Positions 1,896-64,000 of a stretch of DNA of 64,000 bases are shown piece by piece. This DNA is from Mycolicibacterium helvum (GTDB lineage Bacteria > Actinomycetota > Actinomycetes > Mycobacteriales > Mycobacteriaceae), in assembly GCF_010731895.1 (NCBI RefSeq), contig NZ_AP022596.1, forward strand, positions 5,642,001-5,706,000, given 5' to 3'. The notes under the pieces were generated by a model. That model made no database searches. It saw nothing but the letters and a program-made list of their open reading frames with translations, and was not told the origin of the DNA. The number at the start of each line of letters is the position of its first letter. Within the stretch, counting starts at the first letter, position 1. Made by a program: the position numbers and the translations under genes.

Positions 1896-1899
1896 TGCG

Positions 1900-2580: not shown

Positions 2581-2590
2581 ACAGACTCTT

Positions 2591-3267
2591 TCAGGAGACG
2601 AATAGGGGACGTTCGCGTTGCGCGTGGCGCTGCGCCAATTCATCGAGCAGCGGGTCGGACAAGTCGGCGAGCGCGGTGGCGGCCAACTCGGCGGTCTGTT
2701 CGCACAGCTGCGCCAAGCTGAAGGTCAGCGCCGCGACATCGGCGGGATCCAGCGCCAGCAGCCGCTGCGCGGCGGTGGCGGTGCCGGTCATAGTGGTGTA
2801 CACGATCGACAACGCGGTCTGCTCGGGCTGCAGTCCGCTGGCTAGGCCGACGCGGCCGGCGGTCACCGCCAAATGCGGACGGGGACCCAACGAATCCCAG
2901 GCCCAGTCCTGCTCCGAGTCCGGCCAGACTCGACGGGCCAGCCGAAGCAGCCCGCGGCCTTGGGCGCGGGAGGCCTGCCGGGCCGCCGGTGCCGGTGTCC
3001 GGGCATCGGTTTCGGCGTCGGCGACGGCCACCGTCAGATCCCCGCGGTGCACGGCGGCCGCAACGGACGCCGTCACCAGACCGCTGGTGCGGATCCGGCG
3101 GCGTAGATAAGCCGCCAATGTGGTGAGGTCGACGACCAGCTGGCTGGCCACCGCCTCCTCGGCCCCGCCGGAGTGCACGTGTCCCCCGGTCGGCAACCGC
3201 GAGTCGGTCAGCGTCAGCAGGGTGCTCAGCGACGAGGGCGAGCGAAGCGACGGGGAATGTGCAGCCA

Positions 3268-3268
<1 letters not shown>
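2591..3268 (-). CDS. ureF: Urease accessory protein UreF
   Basis: All-helical urease maturation protein that bridges UreD-bound urease and UreG, and is thought to gate GTPase activity. About 225 residues from ATG at 3268. Recognisable family segments are [19 protein letters not shown] near the N-terminus (about 15-33) and the alanine-rich C-terminal helices. The open frame extends upstream into ureC, but the start at 3268 gives the usual UreF N-terminus and a 1-nt stop/start overlap with ureC. It is fourth in the urease operon. No anomalies seen. Confidence 0.93.
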
Positions 3269-4985
<1,717 letters not shown>

Positions 4986-4989
<4 letters not shown>

Positions 4990-49034: not shown

Positions 49035-49036
49035 CG

Positions 49037-49531
49037 ATGCCGAAATTCAGTGCGGGCGTGCTGTTGCACCGGGTAACCGATGGGGTCGCTGAGGTACTGA
49101 TCGGTCACCCGGGCGGACCATTCTGGGCGCGCAAGGACGACGGCGCGTGGTCGATCCCGAAGGGCGAGCACGAGCCCGACGAGGACCCGTGGGCGGCCGC
49201 GCAACGCGAGTTCGCCGAAGAACTGGGTTGCGCTGTCCCCGAAGGTCCCCGGATCGCGTTCGATGCGGTCAAGCAGCCGAGCGGCAAGGTGCTGACGGTG
49301 TTCGCCGTCAACGCCGACCTGGACGTGGCCGATGCGCACAGCAACACCTTCACGCTGGAATGGCCGAAGGGGTCGGGACGGCTGCAGGAGTTTCCCGAGC
49401 TGGATCGGGTGGCGTGGTTCGCGGTGGCGCAGGCACGGCGGAAGCTGCTCAAAGGACACGTGGTGTTCCTGGATCTGTTGATGGCTCATCAGTCGGGACT
49501 CGGTGAAGGCGATCCGGGCCCGGAGGGTTAG
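49037..49531 (+). CDS. Nudix hydrolase
   Basis: 164-residue Nudix-fold pyrophosphohydrolase from ATG 49037, just after malQ (gap 2 nt). The Nudix box is complete: GEHEPDEDPWAAAQREFAEELG (G-x5-E-x7-REUxEExG). N-terminal SAGVLLHRVTDGVAEVLIGHPGGPFW suggests a dinucleoside polyphosphate or sanitising (NTP/capping) type. The substrate cannot be inferred from sequence. A longer frame in another phase overlapping malQ is spurious. Confidence 0.9.
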   Translation: MPKFSAGVLLHRVTDGVAEVLIGHPGGPFWARKDDGAWSIPKGEHEPDEDPWAAAQREFAEELGCAVPEGPRIAFDAVKQPSGKVLTVFAVNADLDVADAHSNTFTLEWPKGSGRLQEFPELDRVAWFAVAQARRKLLKGHVVFLDLLMAHQSGLGEGDPGPEG

Positions 49532-49540
49532 CCTCACGCA

Positions 49541-50422
49541 ATGATGATCGGTGTCGTCGCTCCCATCGCGGCCGGGGTCACCGCCGATCCCGTCTGGATG
49601 GGTGAATTCGCCCGCCACCTCGAGGCCTGCGGCTTCGAGTCGATCATCATGGCCGAGCACACCGTGCTGGTGACGCAGTACGCCAGCGTGTATCCCTACG
49701 ATCCGTCCGGCCGGGTCGAGGTGGCCCCGGAGTGTCCGGTGCCCGATCCGCTGGAGCTGTTGGCATTTCTGGCCGGCCAGACCACGACGTTGGGGCTGGC
49801 CACCGGTGTCCTCGTGTTGCCCAACCACCATCCGGTGATGCTGGCCAAACGGGCCGCCACCGTCGACGTGCTCTCCGGCGGCCGGCTGCGGTTGTGTGTC
49901 GGGGTGGGGTGGCTGCAGGAGGAGATCGAAGCCTGCGGAGCCGATTTCGATACCCGGGGCCGGCGCGCCGACGAGCAGATTCAGGTGCTGCGGGCGCTCT
50001 GGGCCGACCATCCCGATGGGGTCAGCCATCACGGCGAGTTCTACGATTTCGCCAACGCGATGTCGTACCCCAAACCGGTTGCCAGTCAAGGTGTTCCGAT
50101 TCATATCGGCGGGCATAGCCGGCTGGCGGCGCGCCGGGCAGGACGGTTGGGTGACGGATTCCAGCCGCTCGGGGTCGCCGGCGGCGAGCTGACGACGTTG
50201 GTCGAGGTCATGCGGGTGGCGGCCGAGGACGCTGGACGCGATCCGGATTCGCTCGAGCTGTCGTTGGGCCATCTCGTCACCAAGGTCGACGCCGACCGCG
50301 CTGGACGGCTGGCCGAGGTGGGGGCTGACCGGCTGGTGCTGGGGATGCCGCCGGTCACCGATATCAACGAGGCCAAGGACATCGCGTCAGCGTGCGCGCA
50401 GCGGCTCGGCATGCGGCCGTGA
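49541..50422 (+). CDS. LLM-class F420-dependent oxidoreductase
   Basis: 293-residue TIM-barrel luciferase-like monooxygenase-family protein. Features: FARHLEACGFESIIMAEHTVL, GQTTTLGLATGVLVLPNHHPVMLAKRAATVDVLSGGRLRLCVGVGW, and IPIHIGGHSRLAARRAGRLGDGFQP. Mycobacteria carry many such enzymes using coenzyme F420, often in polyketide/sterol or lipid chemistry. Substrate unknown. The downstream SnoaL-like gene overlaps in GTGA, so the two act together. Confidence 0.86.
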   Translation: MMIGVVAPIAAGVTADPVWMGEFARHLEACGFESIIMAEHTVLVTQYASVYPYDPSGRVEVAPECPVPDPLELLAFLAGQTTTLGLATGVLVLPNHHPVMLAKRAATVDVLSGGRLRLCVGVGWLQEEIEACGADFDTRGRRADEQIQVLRALWADHPDGVSHHGEFYDFANAMSYPKPVASQGVPIHIGGHSRLAARRAGRLGDGFQPLGVAGGELTTLVEVMRVAAEDAGRDPDSLELSLGHLVTKVDADRAGRLAEVGADRLVLGMPPVTDINEAKDIASACAQRLGMRP

Positions 50423-50877: not shown

Positions 50878-52293
50878 CTATCGCACCCCGGCGGCGGCTT
50901 CGGCAAGCGCGTCGGTTGCGGCCTTGCGGCGCATTTCGATGACGTCTCCGATCTGGCGCGCCAGCCGGGCATTGTTCTGCACCACAGAATTCATCGCGGC
51001 GCGGGGTACGGACACGATCGTGGCGTCGGTGAGTGCGACGACACCGGTGATCATCCGTTGGCGGGTCAGCGATGTTCCCCCGACGTACTCCCCCACACCC
51101 AGGGTGCCCAGCGACAACTCGCGGCCGTCTTCGGCGTAGACGACCATCCCGACCGATCCGGCGGTGATGAAGCAGACCGCTTCCGGGATGGTGTTGACCG
51201 GTTGGATGATCTCGCCTTCGGCGTAGAGCAGCTGGCGGCCCTGCGCCGACATCGCGGCCGCCGCCTCCTGCCCAAGCCCCAGCCCGGCCGCGATCCGCTG
51301 CAGCGCACCGTCCACGTAGGCCTTGGCGGCCTCGGGGTCAGGACTCGCCTCGTCCAGGTGCAGTCCGGCCCGCTGCGCGGCGTACCACGCGCGGTGCAAC
51401 AACAGCGCCTTGGTGCGCGATTCGTCGGCCGGTGAGGCGATCGGCACCGACACCTTGTACTTCGCTTCCCCGAGCGCCACCACTTTGGCCGGCATAGTGG
51501 CCAGCCGCGCCGGCAATCCGGTGGCCACCGCCATCAGCGCCGCCGCCACCGCGCCCGGTGGATCGTCGGGGCCGAACGTCAGCGTGGCTGCCGCCTGATA
51601 GGCCGCACCCTGCACCCGGCTGAGGTTGGTGAACGAACCGGTCGCCAGCATCGCGTTCGGCACGATCTGGATGCCATTGCCGGTGTCGATGTGTGCGGCA
51701 CGCCAGTTCACTTCGACCACGCGGCCTTTGGCCGGCGCGGCGTCCAGCCAGTCGCCGATGCGGAACGGTTGCTCGAATAACAGCAGCAGCCCGGCGATGA
51801 CCGGGCCGACCGCGGTCTGCACCGCCAGGCCGATCACGATCGACGTCACGCCGACTGCGGCGATCAGCCCGCCGATATTGGCTCCCCAGACCCAGGACAG
51901 CAGCAGCCCGACGCCCAGGATGATGAGCACCAGCCGGCCCAGGTCGATAAAGATGCCTGGCAGGCGTTCGCGCCAGCTCCCGGCCCGCGCTGTGCCGAAC
52001 AACGCGGCATTGGCGCCGGACAACAGCAGTAGCATGATCAGGAAGCCGAAGGCTGTCGCGGCGATCTTGGACCAGGTGGCGTCGACGTCTGCCTGCTCCA
52101 GCTGTGCGATCAGCAGGTAGACCGCACATGCCGGCAGCACCCAGTTCCGCAGCAGGGCAACTGGTTTGGCGTAGGAACTGTTCCGGCGAGTCAGGACTCC
52201 GTGAAGTTCGTTGAGCAGCAGCAGGGCTAGCGGCAGGCCGATGATGACACCGAACGCCGGCCAGAACCAGGGTTGCGAGGTCAGTCCGCTCAT
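50878..52293 (-). CDS. MscS-family mechanosensitive channel with cyclic nucleotide-binding domain
   Basis: 471-residue membrane protein. N-terminal hydrophobic region with about five helices (about 5-185), an MscS pore helix and beta domain (about 155-300: GGLIAAVGVTSIVIGLAVQTAVGPVIAG, FEQPFRIGDWL, RVVEVNWRAAHIDTGNGIQIVPNAML), and a C-terminal cNMP-binding domain (about 330-455: GRQLLYAEGEIIQPVNTIPEAVCFITAGSVGMVVYAED, LGVGEYVGGTSL). It is encoded directly after, and overlaps by ATGA, a membrane cyclase-like gene. M. tuberculosis has the same pair (Rv2434c/Rv2435c). A cNMP- or nucleotide-gated osmotic valve is inferred. Confidence 0.9.
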   Translation of the reverse strand: MSGLTSQPWFWPAFGVIIGLPLALLLLNELHGVLTRRNSSYAKPVALLRNWVLPACAVYLLIAQLEQADVDATWSKIAATAFGFLIMLLLLSGANAALFGTARAGSWRERLPGIFIDLGRLVLIILGVGLLLSWVWGANIGGLIAAVGVTSIVIGLAVQTAVGPVIAGLLLLFEQPFRIGDWLDAAPAKGRVVEVNWRAAHIDTGNGIQIVPNAMLATGSFTNLSRVQGAAYQAAATLTFGPDDPPGAVAAALMAVATGLPARLATMPAKVVALGEAKYKVSVPIASPADESRTKALLLHRAWYAAQRAGLHLDEASPDPEAAKAYVDGALQRIAAGLGLGQEAAAAMSAQGRQLLYAEGEIIQPVNTIPEAVCFITAGSVGMVVYAEDGRELSLGTLGVGEYVGGTSLTRQRMITGVVALTDATIVSVPRAAMNSVVQNNARLARQIGDVIEMRRKAATDALAEAAAGVR

Positions 52294-54500
52294 GCCGACT
52301 GCCGCGTTCCGACGTCCAACCGCCACACCGGTTCGTTGCCCGCTGAGCCGCTGATGGTGCCGGCGTCGGAGAACGAATAGATACCGACCACCGCCTCATG
52401 CACCCGGTCGCTGACGAACACCCCAGGTGTCTTGGTCGCCGCGTGCACCCTGTTCGCCAGGTCGACGGCCTCTCCCCACAGTGCGTAGATCTTCGACCGC
52501 TGCCCCACCAGGCCGCTCGTCACCGGGCCGCTGTCAATGCCCGCCCGGATGGCCAGTCGCGCGTCGTGCTGGTCGTTGAAACGCTGCACGATGTCGGTGA
52601 GCTCGTTGGCGAAGGCGATCGTCCGGCTGGCGTGGTCGACGCGCGGCACCACCAGACCGCAGGTGGCCAGTAGCCCGTTGTCCTGCATGCTGCGAACCTG
52701 CTCGACGCCGTGTCGTTCGGCCGCCCCGTCGAAGGCCTCGGCCAGCGAATTGAGCATGGCGACCGATTCTCCAGAGGGCATCGAGCGGGAGAATTCGTCG
52801 AACCCGAGCAACTGGGCGTAGATCACCGAGACGTCGCGGTAATGGGTGCTGATGTTCTCCTCGCCGTCGCGGTAACGCCGCGCCACTGATTCGGGCATCA
52901 GGCTCGCCAGCAGTTCGTCGTTCTCGCGCCGCTGCTCGTCGATGAGCTGTTGTTTGGTTTGCAGGCTGGCGCTCATATCGTTGAAAGCCGAAGCCAATTC
53001 CCCGATTTCGTCTCGGGCCGTGACGGGGACGCTTACCCCGAGCTCACCGCCGGCGACGCGACGTACCGCGGTACCCAGTATTTTGATCGGCCGGGTGAGA
53101 ATTCGGCTGAACAACAACGCAAGTAGCGACACCACCAGGACAATCGCCGCCGTCGACAGCGCGATGTTGCGGGCGAACGTGGTAACCGGAGCCAGTGCCT
53201 CCGATCTGTCGATCTTGGCCACCAGCACCCAGTCGAGGCCCGGTATATCCAGCGGCGCGTAAGCGACCAGCGACTCCGGCCCGATGTAGTCGCGTGCAGT
53301 GGTAACCCCGGTCGCCCCGGTCAGCGCGCGGTTGACCGCCAGCTTGTCCACCGGCTGCAGGAGCACACTGCCCTTGACGGCCACTTGGCGCTCGGCGATC
53401 TCGTCGGGGGTGCCGTCGGCGATCACCTCTTCGGCGTAGTGCTTGGGATCGGTGAGCAATTCCCGGGATACCGATCGCATCAGCTTGTCCGGCCCGGCCA
53501 GGTACGTCTCACCCGACTGCCCGAGGCCGTCTTGGACCCAGCGTCCCTGCCCCGTCATCACATCGTTGACCGCATCGAGGGACAGCTGCAATGCCAGCAC
53601 CCCGGAGATGGCACCGTCTCGGCCGATCGGCGACAGCACCCATTGAGTGGGCTTGCCGTACGCCGGCGCGTACCTCTCGAAGTCACTGATGAAGGTCTGA
53701 TCCACCGATGTCGCCTGCAGAGCTTTGCGATAGGTCTGCGCGAGGACGGTTGTGCTGTATGGGCCGTTGGTCACGTTCGTGCCGAGATCGGCGCCCTTGT
53801 ACGCGGTGTAGATGACATTGCCCTGGGTGTCGAGGATCGCCGCGTCCTCGAAATTGAACCGCTGGGTCAGGTCAGCGAAGAACGGCTGATAACGCGCATT
53901 GACCGCTGACCAGGCGCTGGGATCCCCCGCGGTGTTCACCTTGATCGACGCCTCGAAATCGCCCTGGGCCGGAACGGTGTAGTGGTACTGCAGATACGTT
54001 GCCGCATTGCTGGTGGGCTGGAACAGCGAGGCGTCGACGGGTTGACCGGTGCGCTCGGCCAGGGTGGGACCGAACACGGTCGAGTAGTACTTGGCCACCG
54101 CCTGTTCGGCGCCCGGCGGCAGTGGCGTCGTCTGAAGTTCGTTGAACGCCTTGCTGAATTCGTTGGCCGCCGCGATCGTCTGAGTCCCATGTGTGACGAT
54201 CGACGCCGCGTCGGTGACTTTGGTATAGAACGAGGTGATCTCACGCGCCCGAGACTCCCGCAACTGGGTCAGCCGCTGGAATTCGGCATTTCGCAGTGAG
54301 GTGGTGCCGGAGATGTATCCGATGGCACCGGCGATCACGACCGAGACAATGCTGACCGCGAGCAACATGATCAGCAGCTTCGACTGGAATCCCAGAGATC
54401 GCAGCCGACCACCTCGCGACAGCGCACCCGATAGTCGGACCACGTAGGACCCCCGCTCACTGTCACGCCCACCCAGCTCTGCCCACCCGAAGTCCGGCAT
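52290..54500 (-). CDS. Membrane adenylate/guanylate cyclase-like protein (Cache-HAMP-cyclase)
   Basis: 736-residue sensor protein: cytoplasmic N-terminus, TM1 (about 42-63), extracytoplasmic Cache-type domain (about 70-440), TM2 (about 445-467), HAMP (about 468-522) and class III cyclase domain (about 555-715). Core catalytic positions look altered: the first metal Asp is Gln (IYAQLLGF, near 52.8 kb), the Lys-Thr-Ile-Gly-Asp segment reads RSMQD, and the VNxAxR motif reads VDLANR (Asn to Asp, Arg kept). The second metal Asp is kept. Cyclase activity is therefore uncertain; it could be a degenerate nucleotide sensor. Coupled to the MscS-CNB gene. Confidence 0.88.
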   Translation of the reverse strand: MPDFGWAELGGRDSERGSYVVRLSGALSRGGRLRSLGFQSKLLIMLLAVSIVSVVIAGAIGYISGTTSLRNAEFQRLTQLRESRAREITSFYTKVTDAASIVTHGTQTIAAANEFSKAFNELQTTPLPPGAEQAVAKYYSTVFGPTLAERTGQPVDASLFQPTSNAATYLQYHYTVPAQGDFEASIKVNTAGDPSAWSAVNARYQPFFADLTQRFNFEDAAILDTQGNVIYTAYKGADLGTNVTNGPYSTTVLAQTYRKALQATSVDQTFISDFERYAPAYGKPTQWVLSPIGRDGAISGVLALQLSLDAVNDVMTGQGRWVQDGLGQSGETYLAGPDKLMRSVSRELLTDPKHYAEEVIADGTPDEIAERQVAVKGSVLLQPVDKLAVNRALTGATGVTTARDYIGPESLVAYAPLDIPGLDWVLVAKIDRSEALAPVTTFARNIALSTAAIVLVVSLLALLFSRILTRPIKILGTAVRRVAGGELGVSVPVTARDEIGELASAFNDMSASLQTKQQLIDEQRRENDELLASLMPESVARRYRDGEENISTHYRDVSVIYAQLLGFDEFSRSMPSGESVAMLNSLAEAFDGAAERHGVEQVRSMQDNGLLATCGLVVPRVDHASRTIAFANELTDIVQRFNDQHDARLAIRAGIDSGPVTSGLVGQRSKIYALWGEAVDLANRVHAATKTPGVFVSDRVHEAVVGIYSFSDAGTISGSAGNEPVWRLDVGTRQSA

Positions 54501-54547: not shown

Positions 54548-55573
54548 TCAGTTACGCGATTGCAGCGCCTGCTGCCCGAACGTGCCGGTCCGCACCGAGC
54601 CTTCCGGCAGCATCAGGTCACCGCTGTCCAACCGGGACCTCAGGTAGGCGAATGTCTGTGCGGTCTGGGCGAACAGATGCTCCCCGGCGACCAGTGCCGG
54701 CCGGGTGGGCCCGTCGGCGAACTGTGGCAGCGGCTGTACGACGGTGTGGTAGTCCACGTTGAAGAACAACGGGAACGAGTAACGCTCCTCGGAGACCTTG
54801 CGCACCCGATGCGAGGTGGCGACGAACGCGCCGTTGGTCCACAGCTCGAGCAGGTCACCGACGTTGACGACGAAAGTGCCCGGTATCGGTGGGACGTCGA
54901 TCCACTCGCCTGCGCCGTTGAGTATTTCCAGTCCCGGTGCGGTCGGTTTGAGCAGCGTGAAGCACTCGTAGTCGGTATGCGCGCCGATGCCCTGGGCGTC
55001 TTGCGCCTGCGGGTTGTACGGGTAGTAGATGAGCCGCAGCTGACTCGGCGTCTTGGTGGCATGCCGGGTGAACGTGTCGGGATCTTCTCCAAGCGCTACC
55101 GCGAAGGCCCACAACAATTCCTGGCCGACGCCCAGCACCGCCTGGTAGTACTCGGTGACTGTCTCGGCGAAACCAGGAACATCGGGCCACACATTGGGCC
55201 CGAGCATCGGGTTGCCGGCCAGGTGATCGGGGTCCTCGGCGGGCAGATCCAGTGCGGTGTCGAAAGCCTCCTTGAGGTCCGGTTTGTCGCCGTAGAGGCC
55301 CTCTTCGCCCACCGGCACGTAGCCGCGATGGCAGGTCGACAGGCCAATGTAGGACGCCATCTTCTGATCCATCGGCAGGGCGAAGAACTGTTTGGTCGCC
55401 GTCAGCAGCTTGTCGAACAATTCGTCGCTGACCGACGTGCCGGAAATGTAGAAGAACCCGACCTCTCGGGCGGCTGCACCGAGTTCAGCTGCCACGCGCT
55501 CCCGCTCGGTGCGATCTGCCGACCGCAACCCGCTGATATCGACGACCGGTACCGACTGGAATGCCCCACTCAC
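54548..55573 (-). CDS. 2-oxoglutarate/Fe(II) oxygenase, IPNS-like
   Basis: 341-residue isopenicillin-N-synthase-family oxygenase. Full two-histidine-one-carboxylate triad: His-x-Asp in IGAHTDYECFT, distal His in VATSHRVRKV, and the cosubstrate Arg-x-Ser motif RYSFPLFF. N-terminal VPVVDISGLRSADRTER is typical of the family, and IPNS-like relatives in bacteria hydroxylate purines, amino acids or siderophore intermediates. It is the last gene of the ureide operon (GTGA overlap with the unknown 196-residue gene). The substrate is therefore probably a purine- or ureide-derived compound, by inference. Confidence 0.88.
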   Translation of the reverse strand: MSGAFQSVPVVDISGLRSADRTERERVAAELGAAAREVGFFYISGTSVSDELFDKLLTATKQFFALPMDQKMASYIGLSTCHRGYVPVGEEGLYGDKPDLKEAFDTALDLPAEDPDHLAGNPMLGPNVWPDVPGFAETVTEYYQAVLGVGQELLWAFAVALGEDPDTFTRHATKTPSQLRLIYYPYNPQAQDAQGIGAHTDYECFTLLKPTAPGLEILNGAGEWIDVPPIPGTFVVNVGDLLELWTNGAFVATSHRVRKVSEERYSFPLFFNVDYHTVVQPLPQFADGPTRPALVAGEHLFAQTAQTFAYLRSRLDSGDLMLPEGSVRTGTFGQQALQSRN

Positions 55574-56160
55574 AATGTCACGCTTCCTTCAGTTTCCTTG
55601 ATCTCCCATGCGATGTCCTCGTCGACTCGTAGCTGTCCTGATGCGAATCGGGGACTGATTGTCATTCCCACGCGGGATGCGTCAGCGGACACAGTTATGC
55701 GCCAATTCATTTCGGTGATCTCACCCAGCGAGACGTTCGTCGCGCCGGGCCGCCGGTACGCCCAACCGAAGCGCTCCCCCACCCGTAGCAACACCCCGGC
55801 CGCGTCGTCGGGCGCCGCAACACGCAGGCCCCAGCACGGTTCCGCCGGTCCTGGCTCACGCTGCCAATGTTCGGTGTAATCGGCGTGCACCCCGATCTCC
55901 ACGAGAGTGTCCTCGGCCCAGCTCATCCGTCCGGCGTCAGGCAGTCCGGGCGGCTGTAGATCGACCAGCCTGGTCCACTCGAAGACATCGAGTCGTTGAT
56001 CAAGCTGGCCGGCGAACCCCTCGCCCGGTCCGCGCACGTCGACGAACAGTGAAAGTCCCTGCAGCCAGACGACATTCGCGCCCGTGTCGCGGGAGCCGTC
56101 GGCCTCGATCAACAGCGTCCGCCGCCACAGGCCGGCACACTCGGCGATCGCAGGTGTCAC
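55570..56160 (-). CDS. Unknown 196-residue protein in ureide operon
   Basis: Soluble, no signal peptide or membrane segment, no known catalytic motif. Conserved-looking blocks are WRRTLLIEADGSRDTG, VVWLQGLSLFVDVRGP, DLQPPGLPDAGRMSW, HADYTEHW, and a beta-rich C-terminus. It looks like a small barrel protein with a Trp/His-rich pocket; I recall similar WLQ-DxR proteins in bacterial genomes but cannot name a family with confidence. Start GTG 56160, in GTGA overlap with allantoicase; stop overlaps the oxygenase gene. The position argues for a role in the ureide pathway. Confidence 0.75.
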   Translation of the reverse strand: MTPAIAECAGLWRRTLLIEADGSRDTGANVVWLQGLSLFVDVRGPGEGFAGQLDQRLDVFEWTRLVDLQPPGLPDAGRMSWAEDTLVEIGVHADYTEHWQREPGPAEPCWGLRVAAPDDAAGVLLRVGERFGWAYRRPGATNVSLGEITEMNWRITVSADASRVGMTISPRFASGQLRVDEDIAWEIKETEGSVTL

Positions 56161-57182
56161 AATGCAGCCTCCCAGCCGTCGTGGAGCGCAGCCAGCCCAG
56201 CCTGGGTGGGCCGCCCTAGCGCCCGCACCCGGGCGATGCCGCCGTCGGGGTAGGCCTGCACCCGGATCGCGGTGATCGCGGCGGCGTCCACCACGAAGAC
56301 CTGGCGAGCATCCGCGAGCAGCCTGCTGCGGGGCACCACGATCTCGTCGAAGGACAGTGCCCACCAGGGCCGCCCGGCGCTCGGCCGGTCTCGGGTGCCG
56401 CGCACACAGACCTCGCGGGAGGCGTTGAAGACGAAGTAGGAGGTGTCGATCTCGACGCGATCGAGATCGGTCGCGGTCAGGAAAGAGATCGTCACCGCGT
56501 CGTGGGTGTCGGGTCCGATGTCACGCCGACGCCGGGCCTCCCAGCCCGCCCCCATATTGTGCGGCCGGTCGGCCGAGATCAGTGCGCGCGCATCGGAGTA
56601 GAACGTGTCGCTGCAGTGTTCGAGGCGCCCGCCCTGCTCGGCCCCCGAGACCTCGACAGTGACGCCCGACCATAGTGCCGGGTCGGGGACGGGGTCCCCA
56701 TAGGCCCGTAGCCTGGCGACCCCGCCGTCGGAGGCGATCACCAACTTGAGATGGGTGTAGCGGCGCGGGTCGGCGACCGCGATCGGATTGTGCGCGTCGG
56801 CATTGAGCGGTGCGGGTGGCGCCAGCAGGCGCCAATCCACAGCTGCACTGCACGCGTCGTCCGATGCCGCCAGCGTGGCGCCGAAGAGCGTGCAGCCCGT
56901 CGGATGGTTGCCGGTGAAGAAGCGGGTGTCGACATCGATGGTGCGCAGCCTGCCCGGGACGCCGAGCCGGACGATGGCCCAGTCCCCCTGCGGTGCATGC
57001 CGACGCGTCTCCCAGCCGTCGACCACCTCCCCACGAAGGTCAAACGTCCCTGGGACGAAATCCGGTTCGGCCGGGTCGATCAGCCGTTCCTTGAATCCGA
57101 ACGACTCGTCACTGGCGGCGATGACACTGCCGCCGACCGCGCGACAAGCCAGATCCAGACCGCAGTCCCGCTCGATCGTCAT
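56157..57182 (-). CDS. alc: Allantoicase
   Basis: Allantoate amidinohydrolase: allantoate to ureidoglycolate + urea. 341 residues with two homologous jelly-roll repeats (about 10-165 and 175-335). Family motifs: SDESFGFKERLIDP, VDGWETRRH, HAPQGDWAIVRLG, DVDTRFFTGNHPTGC in repeat 1; LEHCSDTFYSDARALISADRPHNMGAGWEARRRRD and IDTSYFVFNASREV in repeat 2. Urea produced could be handled by the urease encoded at the other end of the window. ATGA overlap with the racemase gene. Confidence 0.94.
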   Translation of the reverse strand: MTIERDCGLDLACRAVGGSVIAASDESFGFKERLIDPAEPDFVPGTFDLRGEVVDGWETRRHAPQGDWAIVRLGVPGRLRTIDVDTRFFTGNHPTGCTLFGATLAASDDACSAAVDWRLLAPPAPLNADAHNPIAVADPRRYTHLKLVIASDGGVARLRAYGDPVPDPALWSGVTVEVSGAEQGGRLEHCSDTFYSDARALISADRPHNMGAGWEARRRRDIGPDTHDAVTISFLTATDLDRVEIDTSYFVFNASREVCVRGTRDRPSAGRPWWALSFDEIVVPRSRLLADARQVFVVDAAAITAIRVQAYPDGGIARVRALGRPTQAGLAALHDGWEAAL

Positions 57183-57925
57183 AGACCCAACGCCTTCGAT
57201 AGTGGCCAGTAGGTGCGCACGTTGTCCGGTCCCGGTGCGTACGCGCCGGCCTTGCTGGTCGACAGGTCCAGCCCGACCAGCATCTGGGCCAAGCCGACCG
57301 CGGCGGCCACCCCGTCGACGGCGGGCACACCGAGCGCGTCGGTGATCGCCCCTGTCACCCCGGCCATGCCCGCGCAGCCCAGGCAGATCACGTCGGCGCC
57401 GTCCTGCATCACCGCACGTTCGGCTTCGGCAACGATCGCTTTGACCGCACCGGCTGGATCCGCGTCGAGTTCCGCGGTCCCCAACCCGCAGGCCCGCACC
57501 GACGCGCAGTGTGCTGCCAGCCCGGCCAGCAGCAACCGGTCCTCGATCGGGGCGATCGAACGCGCCAGCGTGGTCACCACGGAGAATCGCCGGCCGATCA
57601 GCTGGGCGACGTGGGCGGCGGATTCAGTGATGTCGAGCACCGGCACCTCGAGCATCTCCTGCAGCGCGTCTTTGCCGTGTTCGCCAAAGCCCGCCAACAC
57701 CACCGCGTCGGCATCGAAAGTCCCGCTCGCCAATTGGGCGGCGACGATGTCCATCACCCCGACCGCGGACAGGTAACTCTCGGCGGCCGAGTCGATGGCA
57801 ACCGACCCGAAATTCGGCTGGGTGGTGAGGATTTCGGTCCCCGGTCCGGCGGCGGCCCGGGCCGCGGCGTCGATTTCGGCGCTCATCGTCGCCGACGTGT
57901 TGGGGTTGAGCACCAGGATCTTCAC
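57179..57925 (-). CDS. Asp/Glu/hydantoin racemase-family protein (atypical active site)
   Basis: 248-residue racemase-fold protein. Two homologous half-domains; NPNTSATMSAEID at the N-terminus, and second catalytic Cys184 in CLGCAGMAG. The first catalytic Cys position (Cys79 in allantoin racemase HpxA, from memory) is Gly79 here (LAGFGEHGKDAL). Single-Cys relatives include arylmalonate-type decarboxylases. Between allantoinase and allantoicase, a role in handling allantoin enantiomers is expected, but a conventional two-base Cys racemisation would not work. GTGA overlap with allantoinase; start GTG 57925. Confidence 0.85.
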   Translation of the reverse strand: MKILVLNPNTSATMSAEIDAAARAAAGPGTEILTTQPNFGSVAIDSAAESYLSAVGVMDIVAAQLASGTFDADAVVLAGFGEHGKDALQEMLEVPVLDITESAAHVAQLIGRRFSVVTTLARSIAPIEDRLLLAGLAAHCASVRACGLGTAELDADPAGAVKAIVAEAERAVMQDGADVICLGCAGMAGVTGAITDALGVPAVDGVAAAVGLAQMLVGLDLSTSKAGAYAPGPDNVRTYWPLSKALGL

Positions 57926-59268
57926 ACCGGCTCCCGTACTCCTGCCCAAAGCAGCTCGCCGCACGTGTTCTCGTCCGCCAACCGGCCGCCACGCCACATC
58001 TGACGCACCGCGCCGGTCAGCGGGGCTCCCTCGTATGGAGTGAGCGAATGGCGGTGGTGTAGTTCGGCACCGCGCACCACCCACGCCGCGTCGGGGTCGA
58101 ACACACAGAAGTCGGCCCGTGTGCCGGGTGCGATCACGCCGCGGTCGGTCAGGCCGGCCAGCCCGGCGGGTGCCTGTGCCATCCACCGGCATACATCCGG
58201 CAACTCGAACCCAGCGCGCGCCGCGTGGGTCCACAGCGCGGGCAGCGCGATCTGCAGTGAACTGATCCCGCCGAACGCGCGGCCGAAATCGCCGCCGTGC
58301 AGATCCTTGTGCTGCGGCGCACACGGGGAGTGGTCGGAAACCACCATGTCCAGGGTGCCCTCGGCCAGCGCCGCCCACAACAGGGCCCGGTTGCCTTCAC
58401 CGCGGATGGGCGGGCAGGCCGCGAACACCGTGCCACCCTCGGGAATGCTCTCGGCCGTGAAAGTCAGGTAATGCGGGCAGGTTTCGGCGGTGACGGGCAG
58501 CCCGGCCCGTTTGGCATCGGCGATCAGTGGCAGCACGGCTGCGCTGGAGACGTGCACGATGTGCGCCCGCGCGCCGGTCTCGGCAACGGCATCGAGCACG
58601 ATCTGCACCGCGTCCTGCTCGGCGGCGTCGGGTCGCGACCGCAGGAAGTCGCCATAGTCGCGGCCCGCCGGTGGCGGGCAACCGGCCAGCACCCTGGCGC
58701 TCTCGGCGTGCACCAGCAGCACCGAATCCAGTTCGGCGACTCTGGCCATCGCGGCACGGAACTCGGCCACGTCTAGCGGCGGGAAGTTCGGGTTGCCCGA
58801 CTCGGACAGAAAGCACTTGAATCCGAGCACCCCGGCATCGGTGAGTTCGCCAAAGGAACCAAGGTTGTCCGGCACGATGCCGCCCCAGAACCCGGTGTCC
58901 ACGCGGCACACCCCGGCGGCCGCTGAGCGTTTGATGTCCAGCGCGGCCACCGTCGTCGTCGCCGGATCGCTGTCCAGCGGCATGTCCACGACGGTGGTGA
59001 TGCCGCCGGCGAGCGCCGCCGCGGTCGCGGTGGCGAAGCCCTCCCAGTCCGTACCCGGATCGTTGATGTGCACGTGGGTGTCCACCAAACCGGGCAGCAG
59101 TACCACGTCGGGATCCAGGATGGTCTGCTCGGCGCAGCCCAGATCGGCGTCGACCTCGCAAACTACCCGGATCATGCCGTCCGCCAAACCGATTGCAGCG
59201 GGCCGGACGACACCGCCGACCACCGCGCGCGGGGCGCGAAGGACGTGCTCGACGGCGGGCCCGCTCAC
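57922..59268 (-). CDS. allB: Allantoinase
   Basis: Dihydroorotase-like amidohydrolase: allantoin to allantoate. 448 residues with the expected binuclear metal site: LPGLVDTHVHINDPG (His-x-His), carboxylated Lys in VLGFKCFLSESG, His in LLVHAES, His in HIVHVSSA, Asp in VSDHSPCAP. GTG 59268. Sits upstream of the racemase and allantoicase in the same operon. A dihydropyrimidinase role is possible but the allantoicase partner strongly favours allantoin. Confidence 0.93.
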   Translation of the reverse strand: MSGPAVEHVLRAPRAVVGGVVRPAAIGLADGMIRVVCEVDADLGCAEQTILDPDVVLLPGLVDTHVHINDPGTDWEGFATATAAALAGGITTVVDMPLDSDPATTTVAALDIKRSAAAGVCRVDTGFWGGIVPDNLGSFGELTDAGVLGFKCFLSESGNPNFPPLDVAEFRAAMARVAELDSVLLVHAESARVLAGCPPPAGRDYGDFLRSRPDAAEQDAVQIVLDAVAETGARAHIVHVSSAAVLPLIADAKRAGLPVTAETCPHYLTFTAESIPEGGTVFAACPPIRGEGNRALLWAALAEGTLDMVVSDHSPCAPQHKDLHGGDFGRAFGGISSLQIALPALWTHAARAGFELPDVCRWMAQAPAGLAGLTDRGVIAPGTRADFCVFDPDAAWVVRGAELHHRHSLTPYEGAPLTGAVRQMWRGGRLADENTCGELLWAGVREPV

Positions 59269-60098
59269 CGCGGCCGCACCGGGCCGAACCGCTCCTCGAG
59301 CCGCGCTGTCAGTTCCGGCCAGACGTGCGGGTCGTGGCCGGGAACCAGCTCATACCCCTTCGCACTGGCCAGCTTCTTCAGCCGCCGGATCGGCTCCACC
59401 GTCTCGGCCGGGTCGACGTCGATGAACCCGCCGATCGGCAGCTCGTGCTCGATGTTCTCGGTCAGATCAGCGGCGTCGAACGCGAACACGAAACCGCCGC
59501 CGCCGACGCTCGGATCGAGCTCCACGACGAAGCTCTGATGCCCCGGCGTGTGCCCGTAGGTCGGTACCGCGGTGATACCTGGCGCGATCTCGGCTTCACC
59601 GTCGGCCAGCACCCAGTCGATGCGCGGATCGTCGAAGTCCACTCGGACGATCGCATTCCGTTCGGGCTCAGGGTGATTCGACAGACCGTACTCCAGCTCG
59701 CGGCGCTGCGCGTGCACCGGGACCTTGCCCGCGAACAGCTTCACACCGCCGGCATGGTCGTGGTGCAGATGCGACAGCGCCACGAGGTGGATGTCGTCAA
59801 CGTCGATGCCGATGTCGTGCAACGACTCCTCGATCGGCTCACCAGGCCCTGGGAGCACCGGGATGTACTCGACGGTCGGGAAGAACCGCCGGTACAACGC
59901 CGGATCCCGGATCAGCGCGGTGTTGAACCCGGTGTCGAGCAACACCCAGCCGCCGTCTGTCTGCAACAGCACACCCGGCACCGGTTCGCGCATCCGCAGC
60001 TCCGGTGGTGATCCGTAGACCGACACCGACTTCGGCAGCTCCTCCCACCCCAGCGTCAGCAGGACGATCCGGCGAACTTTGCCCTTTCCCAACGCCAT
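59265..60098 (-). CDS. Metallo-beta-lactamase-fold hydrolase (AHL-lactonase-like)
   Basis: 277-residue MBL-fold enzyme with the metal motif HLHHDHAGG, downstream His in YGHTPGHQS, Asp in FAFDAADL, and C-terminal His in VPGHDPHVW. It resembles N-acyl-homoserine lactonase/cyclic amide hydrolase types. In this operon a hydrolase of a ring (lactone, lactam or imide) or a thioester is plausible. No signal peptide; cytoplasmic. GTGA overlap with allantoinase; 4 nt after the binding protein gene. Confidence 0.88.
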   Translation of the reverse strand: MALGKGKVRRIVLLTLGWEELPKSVSVYGSPPELRMREPVPGVLLQTDGGWVLLDTGFNTALIRDPALYRRFFPTVEYIPVLPGPGEPIEESLHDIGIDVDDIHLVALSHLHHDHAGGVKLFAGKVPVHAQRRELEYGLSNHPEPERNAIVRVDFDDPRIDWVLADGEAEIAPGITAVPTYGHTPGHQSFVVELDPSVGGGGFVFAFDAADLTENIEHELPIGGFIDVDPAETVEPIRRLKKLASAKGYELVPGHDPHVWPELTARLEERFGPVRPR

Positions 60099-60102
60099 CG
60101 GC

Positions 60103-61683
60103 TTATCCGACCGACAGCGCGGCCAGCCGCAGCGTGTTCGGGTCGGTCACCACGTGCGCCTGCTCGACACCCTTGAGCCACGGCTGCGCCACCATGAAAT
60201 CGTTGACATCGGCGACGTTGAGCCAGCAACCGGTCTTGACCGCTTCCTCCCCGGCTGTCGAGAAGTCCGCGTCCGAACCGGTCGGCAGCCCCTTGGTCAG
60301 TGCGTCGGTGACCGCCGGCGCCGAGCACCCGAAGAAGTTCAGCCCCCCGTCGGCATCCCAGGAGATGTGGCCCCAGGTGTAGGGCGAGGGCGCGTCCGGC
60401 CACCCGAGATAGGTCATGATATCCGGTGCGGACTGCCCGTCGCCGCCAACCCATCCGTAGATCTCAGAGGTTGGATAGGCCTGGACTTTGGCGTTCAATC
60501 CGGCCGCGGCCAGCTGAGTCTGAATCAGGTTGCTGATCAGCTGGTTGTCGGGATTGCTGGAGTCATAGCCAATGGTGACGGTCTTCTGGTCGGCCGGCAG
60601 CCCCCCAGCGATTCCACTCAGCACCGATGGATCGTGCGGCACCGTCTGCTTGCCAAACTCGGCGGCCATCATGTTCGGCGGGTAGATCTGCTCGGCCTTC
60701 TTGCCGCGGCCGAAGTAGGTCTGCTTGACCAATTCGTCGACGTCGATGGCCTGCATCACGGCGTTGCGGTTCTTGGCGTCGGTCATCATTCCTTTACGCG
60801 GATTGATGTACACGTAGTTCGACATCATGGTCGGCAGCGAGTAATTGGCGAAAGACTTGTTGTCCAAGTAGGACTGCACGGCCGAGGACGGCAGGTCATG
60901 CAGGATCGCCGCGATCTGACCGTTGTTGAATTGCAGCTGCTGGGCCGAGACATCCGTGATCACCGGAAGCTCCACCTTCTCGAAATAGGGCTTGTTGCCC
61001 CAGTAATCTCCGAAGGCGGTCAGTTCGTATTTCGAGCCGACCTCGGCGGCGGTCAGCGTGTAGGGACCGGTGCCCAGATCGTGGTTGGTGAGATATCCCT
61101 GGGCGTTGTCGGTGCCCGCGTTTTTCTTCAGGCCTTCTGGGCTGAGCATGCGGGGCCCGTACGGGCAGGCCAGGTAGTCCAGGAACGCCGAGTTGGGCGC
61201 CTTCAGGGTGATAGTGACACCGTAATCACCCTGTGTGGTGACCGAATCGACGTCGGTGACCATGTACGCCGGTCCTTGGTTCACCGCGGCCCTCCTGTCG
61301 AAGGATGCCTTGACGGCGGCCGACGTGAACGGGGTGCCGTCGTGGAACTTGACGCCTTCGCGCAGCTTGAAGGTGAAGACCTTGTTGTCAGGCGAGGCGT
61401 TCCATTCGGTGGCGAGCAGCGGCTCGAGCACAGGCTTGTCGGTGGCGCCCTTGTACTGGAGCAGGCCTTCATAGGTGTTCGTGGTCAGCAGCAGACCCTG
61501 CCCGGCGTAGTAGATGTCGGGGTCCGGCGGTTGGCCCGGATCCTGCAGGAATGACAGATGCAGGACCTTGTCCGTCGGGGCCGCGTTGGGAGTGCTGCTG
61601 CCGCCGGAATTGGATCCGCCGCAGGCGGTTACGGTGAGCACAGCTGTCGCGCCGATCGCGAGGATCGTACGGAGTTTCTTCAT
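60103..61683 (-). CDS. ABC transporter substrate-binding lipoprotein (SBP family 5)
   Basis: 526-residue family-5 extracellular binding protein (DppA/OppA type). N-terminal signal with lipobox LTVTAC (Cys21 lipidated), then a low-complexity linker, then the SBP5 fold with LATEWNASPDNKVFTFKLREGVKFHDGTPFTSAAVKAS and GTGPYTL. It delivers a substrate to the DppB/DppC permeases encoded upstream. SBP5 proteins bind peptides, nickel, glutathione, amino acids or small heterocycles, so a ureide or a peptide-linked ureide is possible. ATGA overlap with the isochorismatase gene. Confidence 0.93.
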   Translation of the reverse strand: MKKLRTILAIGATAVLTVTACGGSNSGGSSTPNAAPTDKVLHLSFLQDPGQPPDPDIYYAGQGLLLTTNTYEGLLQYKGATDKPVLEPLLATEWNASPDNKVFTFKLREGVKFHDGTPFTSAAVKASFDRRAAVNQGPAYMVTDVDSVTTQGDYGVTITLKAPNSAFLDYLACPYGPRMLSPEGLKKNAGTDNAQGYLTNHDLGTGPYTLTAAEVGSKYELTAFGDYWGNKPYFEKVELPVITDVSAQQLQFNNGQIAAILHDLPSSAVQSYLDNKSFANYSLPTMMSNYVYINPRKGMMTDAKNRNAVMQAIDVDELVKQTYFGRGKKAEQIYPPNMMAAEFGKQTVPHDPSVLSGIAGGLPADQKTVTIGYDSSNPDNQLISNLIQTQLAAAGLNAKVQAYPTSEIYGWVGGDGQSAPDIMTYLGWPDAPSPYTWGHISWDADGGLNFFGCSAPAVTDALTKGLPTGSDADFSTAGEEAVKTGCWLNVADVNDFMVAQPWLKGVEQAHVVTDPNTLRLAALSVG

Positions 61684-62351
61684 CGGGCGGCTCCTTCAAG
61701 TACCGGGGTGGTCAAAGAGGTGCCGGAGCCGCCTGGGCGGTCACATTCGGCAAAGGCGGCGAGGATCTCATCGCTGGTGCGTACCGCGCCGGACTGCAGG
61801 TACTCCATGGCGTCCAGAGCCGCCAGGTGTGCGTCCACCGATGAGCCGCCCACGCAGTCTGAGACGACCCGAACGTAGAAGTCCCGCTGGTGGGCATCGG
61901 CGAAGGTGTAGTGCACGCAGACATTGGTCAGCCCGCCGACGAGGATCAGCGTCGACGCCTTCAGTCCGGACAACACGATCTCGAATTCCGTTCCGATGAA
62001 ACCGGAATAGCGCCGTTTGACGATGTGGAATTCCTGGTTGGGACCGTCGAGGTCGGGTAACAGCCGAGGATGCAGCGCGGTGCCGGGCCTCCCGTCGACG
62101 CAGTGCACACCTTCGGTGCCGTCGAGTTCGCGGCCGAAGTCCACGCCGTTGGGCCGGTGCACCTCCTGGAAGAACACGATGGGGATCCCCGCGCTGCGGG
62201 CGGTGGCAATCAACCGCTCGGCAACCTCGATCCGGTCGTCGTAGCCCGACATGTGGGCGATGCCCATCTCCTCGGCGGGCATTCCGCCGCTCTCCTGCAT
62301 GTCGACCACGACCAGAACCGGATTGCCCACGATCAGTGGCTGTTTCGGCAC
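61680..62351 (-). CDS. Isochorismatase-family cysteine amidohydrolase
   Basis: 223-residue cysteine hydrolase of the isochorismatase superfamily. Catalytic triad Asp17 (VLVVVDMQ), Lys112 (HIVKRRYSG) and Cys145 (LTNVCVHYTF). Members include ureidoacrylate amidohydrolase RutB, N-carbamoylsarcosine amidase and biuret hydrolase, all acting on carbamoyl or amide bonds. In this operon a ureido or oxamate-like product is likely. Start GTG 62351 with AGGAGG nine nt upstream. Confidence 0.9.
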   Translation of the reverse strand: MPKQPLIVGNPVLVVVDMQESGGMPAEEMGIAHMSGYDDRIEVAERLIATARSAGIPIVFFQEVHRPNGVDFGRELDGTEGVHCVDGRPGTALHPRLLPDLDGPNQEFHIVKRRYSGFIGTEFEIVLSGLKASTLILVGGLTNVCVHYTFADAHQRDFYVRVVSDCVGGSSVDAHLAALDAMEYLQSGAVRTSDEILAAFAECDRPGGSGTSLTTPVLEGAAR

Positions 62352-62356
62352 CTAAC

Positions 62357-63361
62357 TTATCCTCCTGTGACTGCGATACGGGGGTCTGCGGCGGCCTGGA
62401 GCAGGTCCACGGCCGTATTGATGAAGACGTAGAGGGCGCCGAGCATCAGCGTCACGCCGGCGATCGCCGGAAAGTCGGCGACCGGGATACTTTGCGCGAT
62501 GTACTGACCGATGCCCGGCCAGCCGAATACCTGCTCGACCACCAGCACACCGGAGAACATCAGGCCCACCTGCAGGCCGGTCATCGACAGGGCTGAGCCG
62601 ACGCAGTTGCGCAGCACGTGCCGGGCAACAATCCGGCTCTCCGACAGCCCTTTCGCCCGTGCGGTGCGCGCGTAATCGCTGTTCATATCGGCCAGCAGGC
62701 TTGACCGCAGCACCCTGCCGATTGCCACCGCCGGGCCCAGTGCGATCACCAGTGCCGGCAGGATCAGGTGGTGCAGGGCGTCGGTGACGACGTCGAAACG
62801 ACCGCTGAGCAGACCATCGACCGTCAACAACCCGGTGGGTCCGGTTGGCGGGTTGCTGATTCCGGTGCGGCCGTTGGCCGGGACCCAACCCAGCTTCTGG
62901 TAGAACACGATCAGGCCGAGGATGCCGAGCAGGAACATCGGGGCCGAGGCGCCGGTGAACAGGATCGCCCGCAGTGCCGCGGATCCGCGCCACTTCAATG
63001 TGGTGCTGAACGCCAGCAATACGGCGAGTAGCAATGCGATTCCCATCCCGTACAGCGCCAGTTCCAGGGTCGCCGGAAAGAAGCTGCCGAGATCCGACGC
63101 GACGGGGTGCCGGGTCCGGTAGGACGTCCCGAGATCACCGCGCACGGCGGCGGTGAGGTAGTTCCAGAACTGGGTGGACATCGGGTCGTTGAGGCCGAGC
63201 GCTTCGCGGCGCGCGGCGACCGCCGACGCGGAGGCCTGTGCCCCCATCTGAGCCTTGACTGGATCCAGCGGCGAAATGCGTTGCAGGACAAACATCACCG
63301 CGGTCAGCGCGACCAGGATCGCCGCGGTGGCTGCCAGCCGGGAGACGATGAAGGTTCTCAT
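62357..63361 (-). CDS. ABC transporter permease (DppB/OppB type)
   Basis: 334-residue permease with six helices. N-terminal helix about 8-28 (VSRLAATAAILVALTAVMFVLQ), conserved DPVKAQMGAQAS, coupling loop RVLRSSLLADMNSDYARTARAKGLSESRIVARHVLRN (EAA-like). Forms the channel with the next gene and the lipoprotein. ATPase genes are not in view and may lie beyond the window. Precedes the isochorismatase gene by 5 nt. Confidence 0.93.
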   Translation of the reverse strand: MRTFIVSRLAATAAILVALTAVMFVLQRISPLDPVKAQMGAQASASAVAARREALGLNDPMSTQFWNYLTAAVRGDLGTSYRTRHPVASDLGSFFPATLELALYGMGIALLLAVLLAFSTTLKWRGSAALRAILFTGASAPMFLLGILGLIVFYQKLGWVPANGRTGISNPPTGPTGLLTVDGLLSGRFDVVTDALHHLILPALVIALGPAVAIGRVLRSSLLADMNSDYARTARAKGLSESRIVARHVLRNCVGSALSMTGLQVGLMFSGVLVVEQVFGWPGIGQYIAQSIPVADFPAIAGVTLMLGALYVFINTAVDLLQAAADPRIAVTGG

Positions 63362-63374
63362 CTGCTGTGTCCTC

Positions 63375-64000
63375 CTAGCTCGTCTTCATCAGGTTGCGCA
63401 GGCTGTCGCCGGCGATGTTGCCGATCAGCGCCAGCACCAGCACCCCGAGGCCGGGCATCACCGGAACCCACCATTGCTGCAGGAAATAACTGAGATTGCG
63501 TGCGGCATCAGCGCCCAGTTCGGGTGCTGGGGCCGACTGGCCGAGCCCCAGGAACGACAGTGCGGCCAGGGTGAGAATCAGCGTCCCGAGGTCCAGGCTC
63601 GCGGCCACCAACGCGTTGGGCACGGCGCCGGGCAACAGGTGCCGTAGGGCGAGCCGCAGCCGACCAACCCCGGCCAGCCGGGCGGCCTCGACGTGTGGTC
63701 GGGCGGCGAGCCGGGCGATCTCGCCGCGAATCAGCCTGGCGTAGAACGGCCACCACACGATCGACACCGCGATCAGGGTGTGGATGAACCCCGGTCCCAG
63801 CGCGGCGACGACGGCGATCGCGAGAACCGGTGCGGGCAGTGACAGGAACCCGTCGGTGATGCGCATCAGGGTGGCGTCCACCCAGCCGCCGGTGGCCCCG
63901 GCAATCAGCCCGATCACGCCGCCGATCAACAGCCCGACCGCGACCACCACCAGCGCCGCGAACCAGCTGGACCGGATACCGAAGAGCACCCGACTCAGGA
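63375..64000 (-). CDS. ABC transporter permease (DppC/OppC type), 5' end outside window
   Basis: Visible about 208 residues of a second permease with five helices, running off the window end. The first residues in view read LSRVLFGIRSSW, matching the typical DVLSRVLFGAR segment, so the apparent GTG at 63989 is internal. EAA-type loop ARLAGVGRLRLALRHLLPGAVPNALV. C-terminal GLGVLVLALIGNIAGDSLRNLMK is normal. Upstream genes (likely ATPases) are not visible. Confidence 0.92.
   Translation of the reverse strand, partial: LSRVLFGIRSSWFAALVVVAVGLLIGGVIGLIAGATGGWVDATLMRITDGFLSLPAPVLAIAVVAALGPGFIHTLIAVSIVWWPFYARLIRGEIARLAARPHVEAARLAGVGRLRLALRHLLPGAVPNALVAASLDLGTLILTLAALSFLGLGQSAPAPELGADAARNLSYFLQQWWVPVMPGLGVLVLALIGNIAGDSLRNLMKTS

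Follow-up and report, generated by a model that had tools for sequence, protein, structure and literature searches.

In Vreelandella boliviensis, the dioxygenase MgdH hydroxylates methylguanidine, and MgdL, a protein modelled as a β-barrel, splits N-(hydroxymethyl)guanidine by means of a catalytic D49-x-R51 pair; both genes sit in a guanidine-carboxylase operon with an ATP-binding cassette (ABC) importer (Sinn et al., main text of PMC12508155). Guanidine carboxylase operons comprise gca, cgdAB, and atzF, as outlined in PMC12186494. No word beginning with mycobact, actino, or allantoin occurs in the main text of PMC12508155, and none of the literature matches listed concerns, by title and start of abstract, the operon studied here. 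Here we analyse an operon at the end of a 64,000-nucleotide stretch (the window) of the Mycolicibacterium helvum chromosome, bases 5642001–5706000 of a 6.40-Mb single-contig genome. An initial annotation described it as a ureide operon of ten genes, encoding importer permeases, a solute-binding protein (SBP), an isochorismatase-family hydrolase, a metallo-β-lactamase-fold (MBL) hydrolase, allantoinase, a racemase, allantoicase, an "unknown" protein, and an oxygenase. The label fits the allantoin genes, which are an exchangeable part of the operon; the constant part bears guanidine signatures. We propose, with a probability of roughly 0.7, that this core is a guanidino-compound utilisation operon, which would import methylguanidine, or a methylated guanidino compound related to it, and demethylate it oxidatively; to this core an allantoin cassette has been added.

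Results

A constant core and an exchangeable allantoin cassette

An alignment of the MBL hydrolase was searched against named genomes, giving 80 loci, the best 80 of 276 relatives (L numbers below are our labels for the loci and regions compared). A gene is scored as present when its profile matches at any point of the locus; some of the loci stop at contig edges. The oxygenase gene lies at most 7 kb downstream of the MBL gene in 60 of the 80 loci, indicating that the arrangement is not due to chance; 55 of these 60 core loci are from Mycobacteriaceae. The "unknown" protein, here called the DxR protein after its Asp-x-Arg dyad, is present in 57 of the 60, the isochorismatase in 53, the SBP in all 60, the DppB-like permease in 57, and the importer ATPase in 56. 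The constancy of the MBL hydrolase is by construction, since it served as the query. The three allantoin genes are all present in 34 core loci, partly present in 5, and wholly absent in 21. Therefore, the allantoin trio is an exchangeable insert, and the importer, MBL hydrolase, DxR protein, and oxygenase form the core. Co-conservation of all ten genes, the check named by the initial annotation, thus fails for the trio, and a single conserved ten-gene pathway is ruled out.

Loci L031, L032, and L039 hold the importer, isochorismatase, MBL hydrolase, DxR protein, and oxygenase together without allantoin genes. Among the 19 trio-free named loci measured, the MBL and DxR genes abut or overlap in 17, the exceptions being L059 (44 nt) and L074 (a scar). 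On a tree of 64 oxygenases (those of the 60 core loci plus L009, L030, L031, and L032, with L104 excluded), cassette presence takes at least seven changes of state, at least two of which are forced by well-supported branches. The M. peregrinum loci L072 and L074 differ by a deletion whose scar fuses the start of allB with the last part of the allantoicase gene, indicating that absence of the cassette is in part a loss. A second SBP–MBL pair lies immediately 3' of the oxygenase gene in L069, L080, L081, L082, and L086.

Guanidine-I riboswitches in relatives of the operon

Rfam identifies guanidine-I riboswitches in relatives of the operon. A model built from six of these riboswitches was run on 99 sources, some of which overlap; it matches 14 times, in 10 of the sources, and 13 of the matches reach or exceed the Rfam gathering score. 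The remaining match, in L118 (46.4 versus 63 bits), precedes a ureohydrolase-family gene and the importer. Guanidine-I riboswitches lie 5' of the oxygenase–DxR genes in L034, L037, L038, and L039, 5' of the importer in L034, L106, and L119, 5' of the MBL gene in L113, and 5' of an SBP–MBL pair in L121. In L036, L119, and L121 they precede a DUF1989 gene (CgdA/B-type) or CgdA/B and carboxylase genes. Outside the actinobacteria, a Paraburkholderia plasmid carries a relative of the oxygenase (56.5%), an SBP and MBL pair that lies 3' of a guanidine-I riboswitch, and genes for UAAP1, UAAP2, carboxylase, and allophanate hydrolase that have further guanidine riboswitches.

Neither the window nor L009 (the stretch around the operon, which extends beyond the window) has a match to our model, and the 59 loci L041–L099 have none either. 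A hidden riboswitch at the window operon is rejected by this model and by Rfam at E ≤ 1.

A luciferase-like monooxygenase gene lies 3' of the DxR gene in the riboswitch-led oxygenase–DxR unit of L038 (10064–11377) and L039 (3175–4464). A xylose-isomerase-like TIM-barrel gene (L121:6087–6977) lies immediately 5' of an oxygenase relative; the guanidine-carboxylase cluster to which both belong has no gene annotated like the DxR protein. Elsewhere in the M. helvum genome, a weak element resembling guanidine-I, at 50.1 bits against a cut-off of 63, is positioned 5' of a TauE-family gene at L140:6745–6849 (genome 3118745–3118849).

A putative TetR operator and adjoining carboxylase operons

Beyond the window end, the inverted repeat CTGTCN4GACAG occurs twice between the M. 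helvum ATPase gene and a divergent TetR gene. The repeat is found neither inside the window nor in 20 further stretches of the M. helvum genome. Of the 69 regions compared upstream of importers, 55 contain it, or 52 of 64 when distinct regions are counted, five regions of the set of eight described below being merged as the same contigs as L069, L073, L080, L083, and L090. The count leaves out L046, which has sites; L069, L080, and L086 start at the ATPase gene, with the upstream region out of view. The rest of these loci, 1.33 Mb, contains 15 other sites, with 12 before cgdA, 1 before a neighbouring permease gene, and 2 immediately before the MBL gene (L105 and L111). The TetR protein may bind this repeat, and the putative operator seems to hold the place of the guanidine-I riboswitch of other actinobacteria. 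Locus L039 has an operator at the importer and a guanidine-I riboswitch at the oxygenase–DxR unit.

Eight mycobacterial regions were chosen because a CgdB homologue lies about 13 kb from the MBL gene. In each of them, cgdA-cgdB-carboxylase-allophanate hydrolase is followed by TetR and next by the importer genes with their partners (domains and full length confirmed for L153), and in all eight the repeat lies 5' of cgdA. We also surveyed 148 genomes of the genus for the MBL hydrolase (E ≤ 1e-80), a CgdB homologue (E ≤ 1e-50), and a ureohydrolase (E ≤ 1e-100), which are found in 32, 52, and 52 genomes, respectively. Without correction for kinship, MBL-positive genomes have a CgdB homologue in 27 of 32 cases, a ureohydrolase in 27, and either in all 32; the corresponding figures for MBL-negative genomes are 25, 25, and 44 of 116. 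More than one type of protein is probably included among the CgdB homologues counted here.

The dioxygenase and the DxR protein

The oxygenase has the HxD...H and RxS motifs of Fe(II)/2-oxoglutarate (2OG) dioxygenases, with residues H199-x-D201, H255, and R264-x-S266 invariant in nine aligned sequences. The PDB entry that it matches best, 9ovh, bears the name ethylene-forming enzyme; among the matches listed, this code occurs only in a paper that deals with the ancestral reconstruction of ethylene-forming enzyme (PMC12329707). Oxygenase relatives on Klebsiella, Sulfitobacter, and Thioclava plasmids have no guanidine genes in view, indicating that the oxygenase family by itself is not diagnostic.

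The DxR protein has no Pfam match. Residues D41 and R43 are invariant in all 50 aligned sequences, as are W32, L33, Q34, F49, G51, W62, D75, E88, G90, E97, and W99. We infer that D41 and R43 correspond to D49 and R51 of MgdL. An AlphaFold2 model (pLDDT, the predicted local distance difference test score, 95.8) predicts a β-rich fold, for which the best Foldseek match in the PDB is 3rby (yeast YLR301w; E 1.5e-3, template modelling score 0.64 by query length); rank 4 is 4qrl, a lipocalin-like protein. The DxR protein is found in 14 of 249 genomes in an order-level survey and in 5 of 396, M. helvum included, in a phylum-wide survey. A first plasmid search for it finds nothing and two others find one weak match each, the second of which is a Novosphingobium gene adjoining an oxygenase homologue.

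We considered that the DxR protein might mainly be a ureidoglycolate lyase. This is weakened by its retention in 20 of the 21 trio-free core loci (all except L070). The profile search further finds allantoicase without the DxR protein in the core loci L057 and L077 and in L102, L105, and L111, the allantoicase of L102 being a fragment at the edge.

The allantoin cassette and urease

The allantoinase scores above its curated cut-off, and the allantoicase slightly below its own (Table 1). The racemase is closest to the solved structure 5lfd, "Allantoin racemase". The structure 3qvj is a Klebsiella allantoin racemase, as given in PMC12661438. Of 40 cassette racemases compared, 39 carry an AGFGE motif, and the remaining one has no letters at that position. 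In the window racemase and 5lfd, a glycine occupies the position of the 3qvj cysteine and a glutamate stands three residues further on. Cendron et al. reportedly found in 2016 that this glutamate takes over the catalytic role of the cysteine. The AllA ureidoglycolate lyase (PF04115) has no match across the whole genome; the E. coli positive control matches.

The trio makes up a canonical ureide cassette, of which the initial annotation named allantoinase and allantoicase as the core allantoin pathway. Genes for urease alpha, a CobW/HypB/UreG-family protein, and UreD lie at 1269–4989 of the window, about 50 kb from the operon. Because of the cassette and these urease genes, the suggestion that a nitrogen-rich compound is imported and broken down to urea is reasonable; that this compound is a modified ureide or purine agrees less well with the guanidine signatures that mark the core.

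The importer and the two further hydrolases

For both permeases and the SBP, the best NCBIfam models are nickel-type, all below cut-off; the SBP scores 157 of the 393 bits required by the NikA model. Nickel import as the sole role of the importer is rejected on these scores. The isochorismatase-family protein scores 55 of 378 bits against RutB and 59 of 370 bits against BiuH, far below the cut-offs, and a RutB or biuret function is likewise rejected. Its residues D17, K112, and C145 are presumably the catalytic triad. The neighbourhoods of its relatives contain nothing informative. The MBL hydrolase is far below the cut-offs of the models for acyl-homoserine lactone lactonases, and its best PDB match is AiiA (96 bits).

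Operon anatomy and neighbouring genes

The open reading frames (ORFs) of the fetched stretch bear out the ten genes, their order, and their location on one strand, and Pfam supports nine of the ten identities initially assigned, the "unknown" protein having no match there either. None of the ten genes contains an internal stop. At six of the nine junctions the genes overlap by 4 nt, and at the other three they are separated by 13, 5, and 4 nt; therefore, the tight translational coupling is real for most genes. The DxR and racemase genes start at 56160 and 57925, both internal to longer ORFs first listed. The operon with its own importer is real, but it has eleven genes rather than ten, all on the minus strand: the two-domain importer ATPase extends from 64244 to about 66200, beyond the window end, as does the TetR gene at 66444–67166, which faces the operon. 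Window coordinates equal those of L009 plus 52000.

Table 1 Genes of the operon within the window
Gene product	Position	Strand	Evidence and remarks
DppC-like permease, truncated by window edge	63375–64000	−	Pfam PF00528; complete gene to 64244, 289 aa (L009 11375–12244)
DppB-like permease, 334 aa	62357–63361	−	Pfam PF00528 and PF19300
Isochorismatase-family hydrolase, 223 aa	61680–62351	−	Pfam PF00857
Family-5 SBP, 526 aa	60103–61683	−	Pfam PF00496; N-terminal lipobox-like stretch judged by eye
AiiA/AttM-like MBL hydrolase, 277 aa	59265–60098	−	PF00753
Allantoinase AllB, 448 aa (cassette)	57922–59268	−	TIGR03178 467 bits, cut-off 358
Allantoin racemase, 248 aa (cassette)	57179–57925	−	Best PDB match 5lfd, 232.6 bits
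Allantoicase, 341 aa (cassette)	56157–57182	−	PF03561 221 bits; TIGR02961 262.5 bits, cut-off 277.9
DxR protein, 196 aa, MgdL-like candidate hemiaminal lyase	55570–56160	−	Pfam none; invariant D41-x-R43 (alignment); AlphaFold2 model
Fe(II)/2OG dioxygenase, 341 aa, MgdH-like candidate	54548–55573	−	PF14226, PF03171; best PDB match 9ovh, 227 bits

Downstream of the operon, an adenylate/guanylate cyclase gene with HAMP and weak Cache domains (52290–54500) adjoins a gene for an MscS channel that carries a cyclic-nucleotide-binding domain (50878–52326). The two are possibly a cyclic-nucleotide-gated channel unit, and a comparable pair lies 3' of the oxygenase gene in L044. An ORF of 547 aa without Pfam match is located at 48629–50272 (−).

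Discussion

Proposed function

In our reading, the core would consist of the ABC importer, the isochorismatase-family hydrolase, the MBL hydrolase, the DxR protein, and the 2OG dioxygenase. The importer would take in methylguanidine, or a guanidino compound that is related to it and likewise N-methylated, and the dioxygenase would hydroxylate the N-methyl group. The β-rich DxR protein, with its Asp-x-Arg dyad, would cleave the resulting hemiaminal to formaldehyde and guanidine; MgdH and MgdL carry out the corresponding steps in Vreelandella. From guanidine, the carboxylase route or a ureohydrolase would lead on to ammonia; in M. helvum, conversion to urea by a ureohydrolase followed by urease is possible. 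TetR acting at the putative operator CTGTC-N4-GACAG would replace control by a guanidine-I riboswitch. In M. helvum the allantoinase–racemase–allantoicase cassette is inserted between the MBL and DxR genes. Since the cassette lies inside the operon, ureides would be degraded under common control, and urea from the guanidine and ureide branches could feed urease.

Several observations count against this proposal. The window operon has no riboswitch, Rfam at E ≤ 1 giving a single sub-threshold microRNA model. The carboxylase set of M. helvum is incomplete: CgdA and CgdB are grouped with a carboxyltransferase part (68% to that of L153) elsewhere on the chromosome, and searches of the genome find neither a single full-length carboxylase nor a full-length match to allophanate hydrolase. 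The ureohydrolase of M. helvum scores highest as guanidinobutyrase (191 bits), followed by two "agmatinase 2" entries at 180 and 179 bits. Both its locus and the CgdA/CgdB locus lack the operator. The MBL gene and a CgdB homologue are about 13 kb apart in only 8 of the 27 genomes that have both. The oxygenase occurs without the DxR protein in 3 of the 60 core loci, and distant relatives of the DxR protein have no neighbouring oxygenase gene in L146 and L148 and lie beside a Rieske oxygenase in L120. The likeness of the dioxygenase and the DxR protein to MgdH and MgdL, in pairing, dyad, predicted fold class, and guanidine context, is drawn from the published description, and Foldseek finds no PDB match to the DxR model at E ≤ 0.001. 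Finally, allantoin genes recur beside the importer, core, or MBL gene in the distant loci L100, L102, L105, and L111, so the link between core and allantoin genes may be more than incidental.

Alternative explanations

This last point, the occurrence of the full trio in 34 core loci and of part of it in 5, and the urease genes within the window would all fit an operon for modified ureides. On this view, allantoin or a ureide with an N-methyl group enters through the importer, is demethylated by the dioxygenase, and is carried to urea by the MBL hydrolase, isochorismatase, and allantoin enzymes. However, the trio is missing from 21 core loci, the cassette changes state repeatedly on the oxygenase tree, and the core has guanidine hallmarks in the form of riboswitches and carboxylase operons; we regard this explanation as unlikely.

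Just as tentatively, guanidine and ureide catabolism could form one unit. The MgdL-like protein would then cleave the hemiaminals N-(hydroxymethyl)guanidine and ureidoglycolate alike, which share the form X-NH-CH(OH)-R, and replace AllA where the cassette directly precedes it, and the MBL hydrolase and isochorismatase would be two further, as yet undescribed hydrolases of the guanidine pathway.

Somewhat less probable still is the import of creatinine or another cyclic guanidine, whose ring the MBL hydrolase or a creatininase would open before the dioxygenase and DxR protein free methylguanidine or guanidine by C–N cleavage. The lactonases to which the MBL hydrolase is related open five-membered rings. 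A creatininase-family gene lies 3' of a guanidine-I riboswitch in L119, and another follows the DxR–oxygenase pair in L034. The latter protein, however, reaches only 123 of 235 bits against the creatininase model and scores higher with MftE, also below cut-off, and Pfam detects no creatininase in the window operon. According to the main text of PMC12508155, methylguanidine can arise abiotically from creatinine, but MgdH is active, among the guanidine derivatives tested there, only on methyl- and dimethylguanidine.

That the importer supplies nickel to urease or a nickel ureohydrolase, rather than taking in a substrate, is very improbable despite its nickel-type best models, since none of these reaches its cut-off and L119 pairs the importer with genes of the carboxylase route, whose enzymes to our knowledge need no nickel.

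If the core does act on methylated guanidines, a candidate methylguanidine-demethylation system is placed in mycobacteria and other actinobacteria, together with a TetR operator that can be tested and that seems to stand in for the guanidine riboswitch, and two conserved hydrolases without known substrate, the MBL hydrolase and the isochorismatase, lie inside a guanidine regulon. The case also cautions that an operon is open to misreading from its most recognisable insert.

Comparison with known systems

The three enzymes of the known allantoin pathway (AllB, AllR, and allantoicase) are all encoded here by coupled genes. In contrast to that pathway, the genome has no PF04115 match, and the trio is embedded in another operon and absent from 21 of 60 relatives. 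The guanidine carboxylase set (gca, cgdAB, and atzF) lies next to the core in the eight regions from mycobacteria, where the two share a putative operator, whereas M. helvum has only CgdA, CgdB, and the carboxyltransferase part together, elsewhere on its chromosome. With mgdH/mgdL of Vreelandella, the operon shares an ABC importer and a 2OG dioxygenase beside a small protein with a conserved D-x-R pair, MgdL being modelled as a β-barrel and the DxR protein as β-rich; guanidine carboxylase genes and guanidine riboswitches are shared by relatives of the operon only. The window operon differs in its Opp/Dpp-type importer, its MBL and isochorismatase hydrolases, the putative mycobacterial TetR operator in place of a riboswitch, and the inserted allantoin cassette.

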